IMG/VR virus record: IMGVR_UViG_3300032284_001178
Span: 1 to 21,255 of that record
Reading direction: 5' to 3' (one strand)
DNA length: 21,255 nt
DNA from: a virus
Each line of letters starts with the position of its first letter. The stretch's first letter is position 1. Shown in pieces: positions 3,063 to 17,030 of the stretch. The notes under the pieces are model-generated. The model ran no database searches. It had not been told where the DNA came from and saw only the letters and a list, made by a program, of their open reading frames with translations. A program made the position numbers and the translations under genes.

Positions 3063-3946
3063 TAGGTGATTCCTATGCCAAGAGCCGAGAAATCCGAGTC
3101 TTTGTAGACTTGATTGACATAAACACCCTTTGGTTTCTTCAAAAGGTCAGACGCACTTCCGTTTGCAACGGTTTCATACTTAACCCAAAGGTATTCGTGC
3201 CCTTTTTTCTCAATGCCGGTGATGTCCCCAATAGAAATGGCCGGAACCGTTTGCCCGGAGCCTGCATTTGGCGAGGCGACAAAACGATAGGACAACGACC
3301 ACGGCCCGCGTCCTTTTTGATCGTCCCACTCCTGCGAGCCGCTGCAACCCATGAACAGCACTTCGCCGGCAGCAAACCCTCTAAAAGACGCTCGATTGGT
3401 TGTTCCCGTCACCGTGGCAAGAGAACGAATGTACGTGTTCGTGACGTATGTGTTTGGCACGTCATACGTTTCCTGCCACTGCAATTGAGGCACAACAATG
3501 TCAACGCCGTTGACGCCGTTCCCATCAACACCGATTGCTTTGAATTGATAGTTCGCGCCTCCGAATCCAGCCGGATAGGCAGTTTCCGATTCTGCCTGCG
3601 TGATGTGCTGCGTTCCGCCGGTCGTGTCAAACGACCGGGCACGCTTCAAAGGCTCCGTGCCGTCTTCCGCACCATTCTTCTCGTACTGGATCGTGACTTG
3701 CCAAGCGTCGTCGCCCAAGTAGCTGACGCTGTATTGCTCGGCACGCAGCTGCATGCCAGACACGCCTGGATACTGCCAATACTGCCCGTAGGTCGTGATC
3801 TGTGTGTTGATTTCGGCGTGTAGCACAACGTCATCAGACGTGCCGAACACCTTGTACGACTTCACGTAAGAAGACGCAGCCTTCTTGCCCTTGCGGACAA
3901 TCGTCGCTTGTCGTGAGTCGCCGTCTTCAATCCAAGTGAGTGCCAT
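3062..3946 (-). CDS. Conserved tail protein after tape measure (distal-tail candidate)
   Basis: The gene directly follows the tape measure with a TAATG overlap, the position where siphophages encode the distal tail protein. The 294-residue product starts MALTWIEDGDSRQATIVRKG and holds motifs I recall as conserved in planctomycete prophages: FDTTGGTQHITQ (about 106-117), GNGVNGVDIVVP, RASFRGFAAGEVLFMG (about 190-205), SYRFVASPN, GDITGIEKKGHEYLWVKYE, and a C-terminus with YVNQVYKDSDFSALGIG. It appears to be an all-beta protein made of an N-terminal domain (about 1-110) and a C-terminal one (about 150-294). It is probably a virion component joining the tail tube to the tip. The distal-tail assignment rests on gene order, not on a recognised Dit motif. 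Confidence 0.75.
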   Translation of the reverse strand: MALTWIEDGDSRQATIVRKGKKAASSYVKSYKVFGTSDDVVLHAEINTQITTYGQYWQYPGVSGMQLRAEQYSVSYLGDDAWQVTIQYEKNGAEDGTEPLKRARSFDTTGGTQHITQAESETAYPAGFGGANYQFKAIGVDGNGVNGVDIVVPQLQWQETYDVPNTYVTNTYIRSLATVTGTTNRASFRGFAAGEVLFMGCSGSQEWDDQKGRGPWSLSYRFVASPNAGSGQTVPAISIGDITGIEKKGHEYLWVKYETVANGSASDLLKKPKGVYVNQVYKDSDFSALGIGIT

Positions 3947-6261
3947 TACGCTGCCACCGCCCCTTCATCGCCAATGTTCTCGGTGTTCTTCTGGATGCCT
4001 TCGAGCGCCTTCAGCTGACGCTCGGCAATCGTGGAACCGAAGCCCATGCCGCCAAGGTTGACGCTCGAGAACGTGCCTTGCGTCTCGACTTGCTTGGCGG
4101 CTTCCGCTGCCGCCTTCAAAAGTGCGTCTTGCTCTGGTGGTTTGATACCGCCGGGGGATGCTTCAACAATTCCAGAGACAGCGGTCGGCGTCACCTTTTG
4201 AGCGGCTAGGTCAACGGCTTCGCCGTACTTCTTTTGCTGTGCCTCGGTGAGCATGCCAGTGTCGCGCAGTGCGAAGAACTCGTCAGCCAGCGTGCGAAGT
4301 TCGTCCATCGTCTTCGCTTCGCCAACCGCGTTGATGACGTCGTCGCCTTGGCTAGAAAGCGTGCGGCGAAGGCTCGCCTTGCTGGTGAGTTGTCCTAGTT
4401 TTTCCGTTGACGCCGCCGCCGACTTGCGAAGGTTGTCGCCAAATGCCGTAGCGCCGGAAGTCCTTTCGTTGATGACGCGGCTGTTCTCGGTTTCCATTGC
4501 CGAAACGCTGCGGTCAGTGTTGGCTTGAATGGCATCGTTGCGGCGTTTGACTTCGTCGTTGCTTAGAGTGATGTTCCACCAGTTTGCGGTTTGGGCAATC
4601 TGGCTCCACATATGCTCCCACGCAACCGCGATGCCGGTGCCGAGGTCCGTGAATCCATTCTGGAACTGCGTTGACCAATTGACGAACGCAGACTGAAGAT
4701 CTGCGGTGCCGGTCTGCCACGCCGCCATCAGCCCCGTCATGGCAATGTCCATTGCGCCGCCAAGATCGCCACCGGAAATCGCGTCATAGATTCCCGTAAT
4801 CGTCGTTGACGCAATCGACTGCACTTCGCCAAACGTGGCAGTAAACGAGTCTTTGAGTTCCGGCGTCGTCACGACCAGGGCAGCGATGCCAGCCGCCACG
4901 AGCCCCAGCGGGCTCAACAGAGCACCCAGGATGCCACCAGCGACCGCTATCGCAGTGCCGAGAGCGTAGAACGCCAAGCCACAGCCGATGACCGCTACGG
5001 TGCCTTTGGCGATGCCTACGACCATCTGCTGATTCTCTTTGACGAAGCCCGTGACAGCCGTCGCCAAGTCCTCAATGAATCCGATGACGACCATGAGGGC
5101 CGGTGCCAGAGCGTCACCGAGAGCCAGCTGCGTGCCTTCAATCGCAGACAATGCAATACGGACAGAGCCGCCTAGGCCCGCATCCATCGCCTTGGCGGTT
5201 TTCATCGCCACGTCGTCAGCGGTCTTCATACCCTCTGACAGTTTGGCAACGCCGCCGGCAGACTTGGACAGCACGTTAGCACTCGTGATACCGAGCAACC
5301 CAAACGCCTTCGCCATCTTTGCCGTGCGTTCAGCGACCGGCATGTCCATCGTCGCCGTGTTGATCTCGTCCAAGATTTGAACGAGCGGCTTGAGATTGCC
5401 TGCTGCGTCTGTGTTGCTGACGCCGAACAGTTCTTGCAGCTTCCCGCCAGCACCAGCGGAAATCACAGACAGACGCCGCAACGCCGTTCCGGCCTCGCTG
5501 CCTTGGATGCCGACGTTGCCGAGAGCACCGAGAATCGCAGTCGTATCCTCGAGCGACATTCCGAGCGACTTCGCCACCGGGCCGGCGTACTTCAAAGACT
5601 CGCCAAGGCTATCAACCGTGTTGAACGTGTTGTTTGCCGCGTAGGTCAAGATGTCGGCTGCGTGTGCCGCGTCATCGGCACCTAGCTCAAACTGACGCAG
5701 CGTTGCCGCCATGATGCCGGCGGACCGCGTAGCGTTCGTGCCAGTTGCCCTGGACAAGTCCAGCACGGCGGCAGTCATGTTGTTGATCTCGTCTGGCTTA
5801 AAGCCAGCGCGACCAAGTTCAGTCATAAGGTTGGCAACCTCAACCGCCGTGAACGACGTGGTCGCACCAAGGTCGCGGGCCTTGTCGTTCAGCATTGAGA
5901 ACGCCGCTGCACCTTCTGGACCGAGCGAGCCAGTGACAGCCGCAGTCGCACGGATGGCGTCGTCAAACGATGCGAACTGCTTGAGTGACAACGCCACCGG
6001 AGCGGCTATCGCAGTGCCGAACACCGCCATCTTCGTGCCGACGCCTGCAAGCGAGTTGCCTACGCGGACAACGCTTTTGCTGATGCCGTTGAACGCCTTG
6101 AACATGCCGGCGATGCCGGCGATGCCGGCACCAACGCCGCCAAACGAGCCTAGCTTTGCGAGCCGCTTGTCAACGACCCCCATCGTCTGGAAAAACTGAT
6201 TGGCACGAGCGCCAATCTCGACAAACACACCGCCCATCCGAATGCTGCCGGCACTAGCCAT
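3946..6261 (-). CDS. Tail tape measure protein (TP901 type)
   Basis: This protein sets tail length and is carried inside the tail tube. The 771-residue product contains a TP901-family core at about residues 95-340, including FASFDDAIRATAAVTG, ATTSFTAVEVANLMTELGRA, AGIMAATLRQFEL and GNVGIQGSEAGTALRRLS. Alanine- and glycine-rich hydrophobic segments follow at about 412-465 (AKGTVAVIGCGLAFYALGTA, GLVAAGIAALVV), which could insert in the host membrane during DNA ejection. The C-terminal third is polar and helical. The start is an ATG preceded by GGAG at six bases. Taking about 0.15 nm per residue, the usual scaling, the tail would be roughly 115 nm. No lysozyme or peptidase domain is visible. It follows the chaperone extension by 15 bases, as expected for this module. 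Confidence 0.95.
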   Translation of the reverse strand: MASAGSIRMGGVFVEIGARANQFFQTMGVVDKRLAKLGSFGGVGAGIAGIAGMFKAFNGISKSVVRVGNSLAGVGTKMAVFGTAIAAPVALSLKQFASFDDAIRATAAVTGSLGPEGAAAFSMLNDKARDLGATTSFTAVEVANLMTELGRAGFKPDEINNMTAAVLDLSRATGTNATRSAGIMAATLRQFELGADDAAHAADILTYAANNTFNTVDSLGESLKYAGPVAKSLGMSLEDTTAILGALGNVGIQGSEAGTALRRLSVISAGAGGKLQELFGVSNTDAAGNLKPLVQILDEINTATMDMPVAERTAKMAKAFGLLGITSANVLSKSAGGVAKLSEGMKTADDVAMKTAKAMDAGLGGSVRIALSAIEGTQLALGDALAPALMVVIGFIEDLATAVTGFVKENQQMVVGIAKGTVAVIGCGLAFYALGTAIAVAGGILGALLSPLGLVAAGIAALVVTTPELKDSFTATFGEVQSIASTTITGIYDAISGGDLGGAMDIAMTGLMAAWQTGTADLQSAFVNWSTQFQNGFTDLGTGIAVAWEHMWSQIAQTANWWNITLSNDEVKRRNDAIQANTDRSVSAMETENSRVINERTSGATAFGDNLRKSAAASTEKLGQLTSKASLRRTLSSQGDDVINAVGEAKTMDELRTLADEFFALRDTGMLTEAQQKKYGEAVDLAAQKVTPTAVSGIVEASPGGIKPPEQDALLKAAAEAAKQVETQGTFSSVNLGGMGFGSTIAERQLKALEGIQKNTENIGDEGAVAA

Positions 6262-6276: not shown

Positions 6277-6971
6277 CTAGATGTGCTTGTCCCATTTAGG
6301 CCCGAAAAGCCGCTTCAAATCCTCTGGCGTTGCCTCACGCGGCTTTGGCTTCTTGATGTATGGATGGAACTTCGTTGCGTCCGCTGGCGGCTTTGATTGC
6401 GTCCGATTGATGTTGTAGGTCTGTGCCAGCAAGGTTGCCGTGTGCCACCAATCTGCCTCTAGGCGACCATTGCGGGCTGCGATGAGTTGTCGGAATGTCC
6501 ACTCTCCTGGGTAGACGCCGAGGACGCCTGCGGCTTCCCAGATTGCTGACCAGATGCCTCCAGACTCGCCTCCGCTCGCTCCATCAGTTCCAGAGTCGCT
6601 TCGTCCATCTTTGCGGCTAGAAGTCCGATGGTCTTGCGGAGGCGTGGCGGGAAAAAATCGATAAGTTCCTGCTCAAGCACCTTGGCGGCAGCGTCCAAAG
6701 CGTCACCACGAAGACCGTCAAAAAACTCTTCCTTCGTCAACTTCTTGTCTTCAACCTGACGGCACAGAATCGCGTAGAGCGTCTCGGCAATCGTCGTGTA
6801 CTGCCCTCGGAGCACTTGCATCGTCGTTGCGATGCTTGACACGTCCACGATGTCAAACGGCACCTTCTGCCCTTCAACGTCAACCGTGACGTTGTCCTTG
6901 ACTCGCATGGCAGCGGCAATCGTCAACGCGACTTGCCACGGCCTGCCCTGGTCATCTCGAAATTCACGCAT
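6277..6971 (-). CDS. Tail assembly chaperone, -1 frameshift long form (G-T type)
   Basis: This entry is a composite of two frames. Translation starts at the ATG at 6971. At the slippery heptamer T TTT TTC (6651-6657) a -1 slip moves reading from codon 107 (Phe) into a frame that stays open for 124 more codons to TAG at 6277, giving about 231 residues. The extension contains WSAIWEAAGVLGVYPGEW, FRQLIAARNGR, DWWHTATLLAQTYNINR and KFHPYIKKPKPREATPEDLK. It looks like genuine protein and resembles the second chaperone part known before phage tape measures. No ATG, GTG or TTG occurs in that frame until inside the ATLLAQ motif, so independent initiation is unlikely. By analogy with lambda gpG/gpGT it would bind the tape measure and recruit tail tube subunits. 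The exact slip site is inferred; the -1 direction is fixed by the sequence. Confidence 0.82.
6459..6971 (-). CDS. Tail assembly chaperone, short form (G type)
   Basis: The unshifted frame gives a 170-residue protein ending at TAG. It starts MREFRDDQGRPWQVALTIAA, then has a mixed domain typical of tail chaperones (about 1-107, with MQVLRGQYTTIAETLYAILC and LTKEEFFDGL), a helix (about 108-134, RKTIGLLAAKMDEATLELME), and a disordered Gln/Ser-rich tail (about 138-170) without recognisable structure. That tail overlaps the -1 frame in which the conserved extension is encoded, a layout usual for frameshifting chaperone genes. A GAGG ribosome binding site lies just before the ATG, overlapping the TAG stop of the previous gene. 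The short form should be the major product, with the long form a minority. Confidence 0.88.
   Translation of the reverse strand: MREFRDDQGRPWQVALTIAAAMRVKDNVTVDVEGQKVPFDIVDVSSIATTMQVLRGQYTTIAETLYAILCRQVEDKKLTKEEFFDGLRGDALDAAAKVLEQELIDFFPPRLRKTIGLLAAKMDEATLELMERAEASLEASGQQSGKPQASSASTQESGHSDNSSQPAMVA
6651..6657 (-). promoter_or_regulatory. Slippery heptamer T TTT TTC for -1 frameshifting
   Basis: Read on the minus strand in the frame of the chaperone gene, codons 105-107 are GAT TTT TTC, which gives the pattern X XXY YYZ exactly. Both tRNAs can re-pair after a one-base backward slip. The -1 frame is open from a TGA about seven codons upstream to the TAG at 6277. The bases that follow are GC-rich (CCCGCCACGCCTCCGC), but I could not identify a definite stimulatory stem-loop by eye. 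A later slip before the zero-frame TAG at 6459 remains possible, though no better heptamer is apparent. Confidence 0.7.
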
Positions 6972-6975
6972 CCCA

Positions 6976-7338
6976 CTACCTCAACAATCTAGGGTCAGTC
7001 ATCTTTCCTTCGAGCGTGAACGTCGCCACGCCGTCTATCGGATCTGTCTCGCTAATGCCCGTCAGGACAGCCACGAACGAGAAGCCACTTACGCCACCGA
7101 AGACCGTGAACGTGCCGCCCGTGTGCATTTTCTGAAACGCCGTCCCGAGATCTGCGGCGTCGTTTAGTTCAACAGACACAGAGCACTCGTAGCCCGTGCT
7201 GTAGACGCTGGAATACCGACTTCCGTAGGCGTTCACGTCGATGGTGCGAGCCGACTCTGTCAGCGTCACGTTGCGAGCGCTGGCGATATAGCCACCATCC
7301 AGTTCGATGGTGCAATCTTTCCCCAGCGTGATCGCCAT
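6976..7338 (-). CDS. Tail tube-like protein, paralogue 3
   Basis: This 120-residue all-beta protein starts MAITLGKDCTIELDGGYIAS and ends its last strand region with DPIDGVATFTLEGKMTDPRL. The start motif TLGKD and the ending motif (P/N)(I/L)DG..T(F/Y).(L/V) are shared with the two genes upstream, so the three arose by tandem duplication. Between them come strands such as RNVTLTESARTIDVNAYGSR and YECSVSVELND. The size and position just before the tail chaperone fit a major tail tube subunit or a close relative. The start overlaps the preceding stop as TGATG. It cannot be said from sequence which paralogue forms the bulk of the tube. Confidence 0.78.
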   Translation of the reverse strand: MAITLGKDCTIELDGGYIASARNVTLTESARTIDVNAYGSRYSSVYSTGYECSVSVELNDAADLGTAFQKMHTGGTFTVFGGVSGFSFVAVLTGISETDPIDGVATFTLEGKMTDPRLLR

Positions 7339-7661
7339 CAGGTGAACTCTTTCGCCGTGACGTTGAACGTGACAGCACCATCAAGATTGATGTTTTCCGT
7401 GACGCTCATGACCGTAAACCCGCTGCCGGCGGCCTCAAGCGACGTGATGAGCGACGTCGGGTCGTGGCATTCGATTTCCCAAGTCTTCGTAATGAATCCG
7501 GCCTTCATCACCTTGCGACCAGGAGCACCAGAAGTGCCGCCGATGTTGCTGCGATTGCTGACATCGATGGACTCCACTTCCTGCGTAAACGTCGCGGAAA
7601 TGATGCCCGTGCCGAATGGTGCGGAATGCGTCGATGCGTCTTTGCCGAGAGTGATTGCCAT
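7338..7661 (-). CDS. Tail tube-like protein, paralogue 2
   Basis: This 107-residue product starts MAITLGKDASTHSAPFGTGI and ends with NINLDGAVTFNVTAKEFT. Its first seven residues (MAITLGK) are the same as those of the next gene, and its penultimate strand matches the motif shared by all three copies. The middle contains QEVESIDVSNRSNIGG and RKVMKAGFITKTWEIECHDP, which differ strongly from the other copies, so the duplication is old or the copies have separate roles. An AAGGA lies eleven bases before the ATG, which is rather far. It is probably a tail tube or tube-decorating virion protein. Confidence 0.75.
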   Translation of the reverse strand: MAITLGKDASTHSAPFGTGIISATFTQEVESIDVSNRSNIGGTSGAPGRKVMKAGFITKTWEIECHDPTSLITSLEAAGSGFTVMSVTENINLDGAVTFNVTAKEFT

Positions 7662-7679
7662 GATGTGCGTCGTTCCTTG

Positions 7680-8012
7680 TTAGGACTGGAATGTGCGGCT
7701 GCCCGAAACCGTGTAGGTGATGATGCCGTCGAGCGGCTGGCTTTCCGCGACGTTCGTGCAGACGTAGACGGCGTTTCCGGTCTGCGTGCCAGCAATCGTG
7801 AACGAACTGCCGACCGTCACGCCTGGATCATCAACGCATTCAAGTTCCACGGTCTGCTCAATCAGAGCCTTGCGGAACTTGCGGGACGTGTCGCCAAACT
7901 TCGTGACGTCAACGTCAGACGCCGAGTTCGTCACGGTGCAGGAGCGGGCGTTGGTGACGCCAGTGATGGTCACGTCTTTGCCAAGCGTGACAGTGACAGT
8001 GGTGCCGGACAT
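7680..8012 (-). CDS. Tail tube-like protein, paralogue 1
   Basis: This 110-residue product starts MSGTTVTVTLGKDVTITGVT and ends QPLDGIITYTVSGSRTFQS. It shares the TLGKD start and the LDG..TY.V end with the two downstream paralogues. The middle has SDVDVTKFGDTSRKFRKALI, a pattern typical of small phage tail tube subunits. It is the first gene after a 93-base gap carrying the repeated GGCAAT..AGACCGG element, so it may head a tail transcript or processed mRNA. An AAGGG ribosome binding site precedes the ATG by seven bases. Of the three, this is the copy I would guess to be the major tail protein, from its leading position; that is inference. Confidence 0.78.
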   Translation of the reverse strand: MSGTTVTVTLGKDVTITGVTNARSCTVTNSASDVDVTKFGDTSRKFRKALIEQTVELECVDDPGVTVGSSFTIAGTQTGNAVYVCTNVAESQPLDGIITYTVSGSRTFQS

Positions 8013-15194: not shown

Positions 15195-17030
15195 TCAGGC
15201 GGTCGCCATGCGGAGGCACGACAGCGGTTCGGCCTTGGTCACGCCGAAGTCCATGTAGCCCCGCATCATGATGCCGAGGTTCTGGTAGTCAGGAGCCATC
15301 TGCTCGATGGTCGGAGCCTGCTGACCGTTCAAGAACACGACGTCAAGAGCCGGCAGATCCGCAGCATCGGCAAGCAGCCACCACGTCGAAGAAGACGTCA
15401 GGTAATTGCTGACCAGCACGCGATACCGACCAGCGAGGACGTTCGCGGACGGCTCAACCACCTTGCTCGACGTGCTGCCGAGCGAGGAAGCGATGAGCGC
15501 CGAGGTCGTCATCAGACGGGCCGCAGTCAGTTCCAGTTCCGGCGGCACAAGCAGCACGCGGGGAGGAATCGACAGCGGGTTGCCGTCCGGGTCGTTCAGC
15601 TTGCGGAACGCAGTCGTAGCAGCCGAGAGGCTATCGAACGACAGAGCGTTGCCGCTGCCAGCCGAAACGTACTGGTAGTAGCTGCCGTTGCTGTTTTGGA
15701 ACTCACCCCAAATCGTCTCATTCAGCGACAGAGCCGCACCACGCCCAATCCGCTGCGGGATCTGCGAAAGAGCGTTCAAGTCGTCGTTGATCATGTCCTG
15801 CCTGGTCAACGACGTCGTGATGCCGTAGGTTTCGGCGTTCAGCGAACGCTTGTAGTCCGAACCCTGCGCCAGCTTGAGGTCACCAGACGCGCCAACCTTC
15901 TGGAACTTGAACGAGCCATTCAACCGGAAGAGGTTGATGGCCTTGAAGTCGTTCACAGAACGCACGGCAGAAATGTCCTGCCACACGCTCTCAACAGCGT
16001 TGAAGCCGTTAAGCAGGAACTTGTTGACAACAGCCGAGAGCAACTGGCTGATGTCCTGCGTGGCAAACGCCGCTTTCAGAACCGGCTCGCAGTTGCCAGC
16101 CGAGATCCGACTCGAGCCGGTGTAGCCATTGGCACGAGCGGCTTCGATGATGACTTCGCTGATGCTCGTCGTGCGACGAGCCTTGTCGGCGGCTTCCAGC
16201 GTCCGGTCGTCAAACGCCTTCTCGGCGTTGGGCAGACCGCCCTGGAGGCACAGAGCCGCTTCAATCACTCGCTCGCTGCGGATGTCTTCCACAACGTGAA
16301 CAGCCGGGGCACGGCTCTCGCGGGTCGCAATGACCTTCTGCATGTCGTCCACCTTCTTGGTGAGAGTTTCGATGGTGGCCTTGAGCGTGTCGCTCTCGGT
16401 CGCCTCGACCTTGGGGGCTTCCACGGCGACACTCGCCGTGACTTCCACCGGCGTCTCAATGACGTCGGCAGGCGTTTCGTTGGCGTTGTCCGCCATGAGT
16501 AACTCCTCCGCTTCTTCAGCGGCGATGCGTGCGGATGTTGCGTCGTCCGCACCCAAGGTCACAAATGAGACTTCGCGCAACCTCGAAGCCTTTACGATTC
16601 GGACCGGACCCATGAAGGTCTGTCCGTTGACGGTTACGGATTCGCCGGCGGCGACCTTCTGATGCCGCATCACGTCGGCACCAACAGACGCCTGCCACGC
16701 GAACCCCTTCTCAGCCAGTGCCGTCACCTGACGAGCAATGTCCGAGTCAGCGAGAATCTCGCCTTCGACGTAGAGGCGACCACCTTCGGCGCGCACACTC
16801 GTCGCCTGCCCAAGAATCGAGCCAAGCGTGTAGTCGTGGCCCATGACCACGGGGATACGCTGGCGATACTTCATGCCTTCCAGGTCAATCACGATTGGCT
16901 CGTTAGACCAGCCCTGCCGGATAGCAGCGCCGGTGTAAGCCTCAATGGAAAACTTCTTGGTCGATGGCATGCCGTCGCCAGCCTCGGCGGCGACGAACTG
17001 CACGGGAATCTCGAGTGCGATCTTGTTCAT
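15195..17030 (-). CDS. Prohead protease / major capsid protein fusion
   Basis: This 611-residue protein joins two usually separate functions. The N-terminal part (about 1-170) looks like a prohead protease: MGHDYTLGSILGQA with a candidate catalytic His65, WQASVGA with a candidate Ser115, and LREVSFVTLGAD at about 151-162. A highly acidic, Val/Ala/Pro-rich linker (about 171-215) and a coiled coil (about 217-243, ATIETLTKKVDDMQKVIATR) follow, possibly serving as scaffold. The C-terminal part (about 255-611) resembles a Mu gpT-type or HK97-fold capsid protein, with YGITTSLTRQDMINDDLNAL, NETIWGEFQ, FRKLNDPDGNPL and RYRVLVSNYL. The protease likely cuts itself free during maturation. It starts four bases inside the portal stop (ATGA). 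Confidence 0.9.
   Translation of the reverse strand: MNKIALEIPVQFVAAEAGDGMPSTKKFSIEAYTGAAIRQGWSNEPIVIDLEGMKYRQRIPVVMGHDYTLGSILGQATSVRAEGGRLYVEGEILADSDIARQVTALAEKGFAWQASVGADVMRHQKVAAGESVTVNGQTFMGPVRIVKASRLREVSFVTLGADDATSARIAAEEAEELLMADNANETPADVIETPVEVTASVAVEAPKVEATESDTLKATIETLTKKVDDMQKVIATRESRAPAVHVVEDIRSERVIEAALCLQGGLPNAEKAFDDRTLEAADKARRTTSISEVIIEAARANGYTGSSRISAGNCEPVLKAAFATQDISQLLSAVVNKFLLNGFNAVESVWQDISAVRSVNDFKAINLFRLNGSFKFQKVGASGDLKLAQGSDYKRSLNAETYGITTSLTRQDMINDDLNALSQIPQRIGRGAALSLNETIWGEFQNSNGSYYQYVSAGSGNALSFDSLSAATTAFRKLNDPDGNPLSIPPRVLLVPPELELTAARLMTTSALIASSLGSTSSKVVEPSANVLAGRYRVLVSNYLTSSSTWWLLADAADLPALDVVFLNGQQAPTIEQMAPDYQNLGIMMRGYMDFGVTKAEPLSCLRMATA

Follow-up and report, generated by a model that had tools for sequence, protein, structure and literature searches.

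The stretch of DNA analysed here, called the window below, is a virus record of 21,255 bases whose structural genes lie on the minus strand in the order terminase, portal, protease/major head protein and then the tail genes. The open reading frame at 15195-17030 (-) is a fused protease-capsid gene: its N-terminal part is matched by families of head maturation proteases and its C-terminal part by those of major head proteins. Among the tail genes, gene G (6459..6971, -) encodes in its zero frame a tail assembly chaperone of 170 amino acids. It lies between a major-tail-protein-like gene directly upstream (6976..7338, -; phrog_1407 major tail protein, E 4.7e-05) and the tape measure gene (3946..6261, -; PhageMin_Tail PF10145, 5.4e-47, and PHROG tape measure families), which is the site that G and T occupy in lambda. 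The -1 frame of G continues into a T domain (IWSAIWEAAG...WWHT...KFHPYI...; 6277..6555, -, stop codon included), and the T stop codon at 6279-6277 stands 15 bases before the tape measure ATG at 6261, the interval given in the preliminary description. Upstream of G are three tandem small genes (6976-8012, -; 120, 107 and 110 aa) which resemble paralogues, sharing 30-35% identity to the first and a common LGKD start; two of the three have weak matches to major tail proteins, and the phage may thus make several tail tube-like proteins.

Codons 105-107 of the open reading frame 6971-6459 read GAT TTT TTC (Asp-Phe-Phe) and place a T TTT TTC heptamer (6651..6657, -) in the X_XXY_YYZ phase for a -1 slip, exactly where it had first been noticed. 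Scans with the extension and with G gave 103 viral loci carrying both, 70 of them distinct, and in all 70 distinct sequences the seven columns of the heptamer are invariant and in the zero frame. Upstream in G the same relatives use GAC versus GAT at 553:192 and TTC versus TTT at 171:94. Among the conserved two-fold-degenerate codons of G only four are invariant, namely Asp105 GAT, Phe106 TTT, Phe107 TTC and Asp123 GAC, the last of which fits as well, since GAT before Glu would create a TGA in the -1 frame. A second heptamer, T TTC CCG (6648..6654, -), overlaps the first and is less conserved, being absent where Pro108 is replaced. A Shine-Dalgarno-like AGGA is common about 9 nt before the heptamer and is inseparable from the encoded Gln-Glu. 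A text search for TTTTTTC together with tail assembly chaperone matched no open-access paper, an absence that in itself proves nothing.

The -1 frame of the window is open from 6672 to the stop at 6279-6277, and a slip at the heptamer would leave 124 open codons (6651-6280) containing the motifs quoted above. It has no ATG, GTG or TTG before the conserved motif, its only such codons, TTG at 6432 and 6318, falling within the conserved motifs or beyond them; the earlier claims of a 124-codon, start-less extension thus hold. The extension lies in the -1 frame of G in all 70 distinct viral relatives. In these sequences -1 stops occupy 382 of the 7,349 codons that precede the heptamer, none of 2,818 between the heptamer and the T motif and none of 2,154 from the T motif to the G stop, while the +1 frame has 122 stops in the 2,818 codons between heptamer and T motif. 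As the sequences are related these counts are not independent events, for which a further 45 diverse loci, taken from bacterial genomes, compensate in part: here none of 2,726 codons is a -1 stop, compared with 135 of 4,259 codons upstream and with 74 stops among 2,726 codons of the +1 frame. A map of stop avoidance over 30 diverse sequences gave about 53 stop-making codons expected after the heptamer and none observed. Residue 112, the first well-populated position of the map, has 8.0 expected and 0 seen, and residue 104, just before the heptamer, has a -1 stop in 7 of the 30 sequences. Because the avoidance sets in no more than five codons from the heptamer, the ribosome is taken to enter the -1 frame at residues 105-112, which is the heptamer site. 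By comparison with the relatives, a chance explanation of the heptamer and the extension is excluded.

The mRNA of the window is predicted to form a 9-bp stem in which CGCCUCCGC (5' arm, 6636..6644, -) pairs with GCGGAGGCG (3' arm, 6567..6575, -), separated from the heptamer by a spacer of 6 nt (6645..6650, -). Most of the large viral group has the same stem nearly letter for letter, wobble bases included. In four relatives (L021, L025, L027 and L006) the spacing is unchanged but the stem is another one, its altered 5' arm being paired by a different 3' arm, and in twelve sequences a short hairpin, GGCTGCG/CGCAGCC, is possible over the same Arg-Leu-Arg encoded by other codons. Fold z-scores were taken against synonymous recoding that kept the protein, forbade -1 stops and followed pooled codon usage. 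The signal peaks 5 nt past the heptamer (mean z -2.85, 30 sequences), with upstream windows at +0.6 to -1.4; a weaker localised signal is present at the 45 bacterial-genome loci, with z of -1.3 to -1.6 at the heptamer and about 0 to -0.4 elsewhere. Three relatives (L026, L029, L037) give no clear stem signal in this comparison, and RNAalifold on an ungapped alignment found no pairs and no common structure, because the arms are out of register and of two types, as seen on folding single sequences. A downstream structure at a spacing of 5-9 nt, a common though not obligatory companion of such slips, is therefore predicted here in all but a few relatives, and the stem probably acts as a stimulator of slippage.

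The AlphaFold2 models and the substitution patterns give a consistent view of the two products. In G, residues 109-140 (6552..6647, -) form a C-terminal helix found only in the unshifted protein and residues 142-170 (6462..6548, -) a disordered tail (pLDDT <50); in the extension, the first 30 residues (6562..6651, -) are a disordered linker rich in Gly, Ser, Asp and Arg (pLDDT <50), variable but never with a stop, and are followed by the mostly helical T domain. Before the T motif substitutions are patterned by the zero frame; from that motif onward, and so across the loose tail of G, they are patterned by the -1 frame. Because models and substitutions agree, the stretch that codes the helix of G is read as the stretch that codes the GT linker, and that coding the loose tail of G as the start of the T domain. 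The C-terminal helix of G and the T domain are alternative ends, and the shift swaps one for the other instead of extending a near-complete G. The slip precedes the G stop by 189 nt in the window, by 159-267 nt across the viral set and by 138-267 nt at the bacterial-genome loci bearing TTTTTTC (L184 excluded); the slip is not near the 3' end of G, and GT does not contain nearly all of G but loses helix 109-140. For a slip at the heptamer the predicted junction peptide of GT is ...DFFPATPPQDHR..., also written ...ELIDFFPATPPQDHR.

The preliminary description had been less sure of the slip position, given that a later slip would keep the helix. On such a reading ribosomes would shift near the T motif, GT would retain the helix of G, and T TTT TTC would be kept only for its Asp-Phe-Phe. 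The mainly zero-frame substitutions between the heptamer and the T motif are what would be expected if all ribosomes read the zero frame there, but they are explained by selection on the helix of G itself. The total lack of -1 stops over this stretch, in the 70 viral as in the 45 bacterial-genome sequences and with some 50 expected in the 30 diverse ones, contradicts a late slip unless stops are avoided for another reason; moreover the synonymous positions of the heptamer are frozen, and the RNA stem stands at the heptamer and not later. We regard a late slip as very improbable and place the shift at the heptamer.

Relatives in bacterial genomes extend the comparison. A scan of the genome collection with the fused alignment gave no confirmed relative, and a scan with T alone gave four; these remote relatives come from Pirellulales and Phycisphaerales assemblies and from one assembly labelled Nitrosomonas. 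A survey of 392 genomes from the same phylum as the Pirellulales assembly (presumably Planctomycetota) found G homologues in 37. T was present at 72 of the 73 loci read, in the -1 frame at every one of the 72; at the remaining locus (L184) T was not found, the fetched sequence stopping at the contig end just past G. In every relative with a T domain the -1 frame is open and, as judged from sequence comparison, codes for protein. Of 71 distinct loci, 50 have TTTTTTC at the homologous slip site, the other 21 reading T TTC TGC (11), T TTT TCC (4), T TTT ACC (3), T TTC TTC (2) and A TTC TGC (1), so that a T TTY core is retained at 20 loci beyond the 50. Over the clade as a whole, conservation is stronger for the putative slip codon T TTY than for the full heptamer; in the window's own clade the heptamer is absolute. 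The T TTC TGC sub-lineage (L135, L136, L143, L147, L165-L170, L176) keeps T in the -1 frame, and this sequence would permit single-tRNA slippage only. Among the remote relatives, L107 has A AAA AAG and L111 has T TTT TTA, both in phase, while at L114 no heptamer was found at the site. The use of other canonical heptamers at L107 and L111 counts for a frameshift; the roughly 21 of 71 bacterial-genome loci, together with L114, that lack a full canonical heptamer and mostly have T TTY only count against it.

One 7.4-Mb chromosome (G354:C1) carries eight copies of the chaperone gene (L126, L151, L153, L155, L158, L159, L160), mostly with the slip context LADFFPAAKR, possibly representing many related prophages in one genome. 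Judging from its relatives, the host of the window virus is likely to be a planctomycete.

The extension matches a phage protein family weakly, below the curated threshold. The T domain of the window matches Pfam PF06223 (Phage_tail_T, the lambda T family) at 18.9 bits and E 0.002, the curated cut-off being 25.9 bits, and lambda T itself scores 54.1 bits. The same family is matched by 11 of 22 relatives (best 4.2e-05) and is the sole hit for all six bacterial-genome T domains tested, at 14.8-22.6 bits, again below the cut-off. G of the window has no match to PF06894 (Phage_TAC_2, the lambda G family) at E up to 1; a direct comparison with lambda G was not significant and detected no similarity, and profile comparison of T and G with individual lambda sequences yielded no match. 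Foldseek and VIA-align searches of solved structures gave no credible relative of G. Structural matches among viral models are weak, a few being named tail assembly chaperone and one, for T, Minor tail T domain. A tblastn search of 50,697 public phage records with G and T found no relative of either.

Taken together, these observations make it highly probable that a programmed -1 ribosomal frameshift, with an early slip on T TTT TTC, operates in the tail assembly chaperone gene of the window. The relatives thus support the preliminary description as regards the -1 frameshift, the heptamer and the start-less extension. Most ribosomes would stay in the zero frame and produce G, in which core residues 1-107 are followed by the C-terminal helix 109-140 and then by a disordered tail. 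A smaller share, paused at a stem 5-7 nt downstream, would slip back by one base on T TTT TTC, both slip codons being read by tRNA-Phe, and produce GT, with the same core, a disordered linker from the helix region read in the -1 frame, and the T domain. By analogy with lambda, G may coat the tape measure protein, and GT, the rarer product, may recruit the tail tube protein. That slippage takes place in cells, and at what efficiency, we infer from sequence. More broadly, we think it probable that this is a deeply conserved class of chaperone, widespread among phages and prophages in Planctomycetota, and that its members use a frameshift on T TTT TTC, stimulated by a stem, to switch C-termini between the helix of G and the linker plus T domain of GT; the helix would then serve a function of G only, and GT would not be simply G plus T.

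The six-T run also invites an explanation by transcriptional slippage, in which the polymerase would produce mixed mRNAs and ribosomes would not slip. The run is conserved, with seven T at L111 and a run of six A at L107. Six bases are short for efficient polymerase slippage, however, and the run is never longer in any of the 70 sequences even though TTT is synonymous for Phe107. A stem at a distance of 5-7 nt typically accompanies slippage by ribosomes, and at the bacterial-genome loci reading T TTC TGC the -1 arrangement persists where there is no T6 run, so we give this explanation very little credence. Next to none can be given to T being a separate gene that overlaps G and has its own start, possibly at a non-standard codon: GTG or TTG does occur between heptamer and motif in two viral relatives (L029, L030), but the other 68 of 70 have no ATG, GTG or TTG there and many have none in the whole T frame, nearly all bacterial-genome loci are alike in this, and the avoidance of stops back to the heptamer would be needless for a gene starting later. 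None of the close relatives has the extension as a gene with a start of its own. At the remote locus L111 a TAATG (3137-3141) lies across the G stop and immediately ahead of the T motif, and T could there conceivably have its own start alongside a frameshift at T TTT TTA.

Ribosomal frameshifting in the tail chaperone gene is itself a known trick of tailed phages. The present case extends it to a lineage of phages for which neither G nor T has a match in the public phage records searched, and adds a new slip-plus-stem element for frameshifting studies. The version in which ends are swapped provides a natural test of the role of the end of G in the building of tails of fixed length.

In lambda, whose G and GT underlie the assignment of function made here, G associates with the tape measure protein and GT brings the tail tube protein (PMC5009743). 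The preliminary description likened the chaperone gene and its extension to lambda G/GT, and the likeness stands for the kind of arrangement: the order is tail protein, G/T, tape measure, a -1 slip, predicted for the window, occurs at a heptamer, an N-terminal part is common to both products, the T domain is probably of the Phage_tail_T kind and the T frame is start-less. It does not extend to the details. The lambda heptamer is G GGA AAG in place of T TTT TTC and lies 15 nt before the G stop in contrast to 189 nt in the window, and the GT of the window has the C-terminal helix of G replaced and not extended. A conserved stem follows the slip in the window, unlike lambda as described in a review which counts certain tailed phages among the frameshift cases without stimulators (PMC5009743). 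The chaperone frameshifts of the SEA-PHAGES and Xu et al. sets concern the same kind of gene pair and the same mechanism, most being -1, but there the slip precedes the zero-frame stop by an average of 26 and 36 nt respectively (PMC10885494), as against 138-267 nt here. The frameshift predictor of that study uses nearness to the stop as a feature (PMC10885494) and would for this reason tend to miss the arrangement of the window; the T half, which as first suggested will also be missed by gene callers, is thus likely to be overlooked by both.

Many RNA viruses have stem-stimulated -1 frameshifts with tandem slippage. The window shares with them the X_XXY_YYZ heptamer, a spacer of 5-7 nt and a strong downstream stem; it differs in that the gene is a phage structural gene translated in bacteria and that the type of stem varies by lineage, being either a long-range stem of 9-12 bp or the short GGCUGCG/CGCAGCC hairpin. 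In dnaX a Shine-Dalgarno-like element acts as stimulator, for which the AGGA of the window lineage is at most a candidate.
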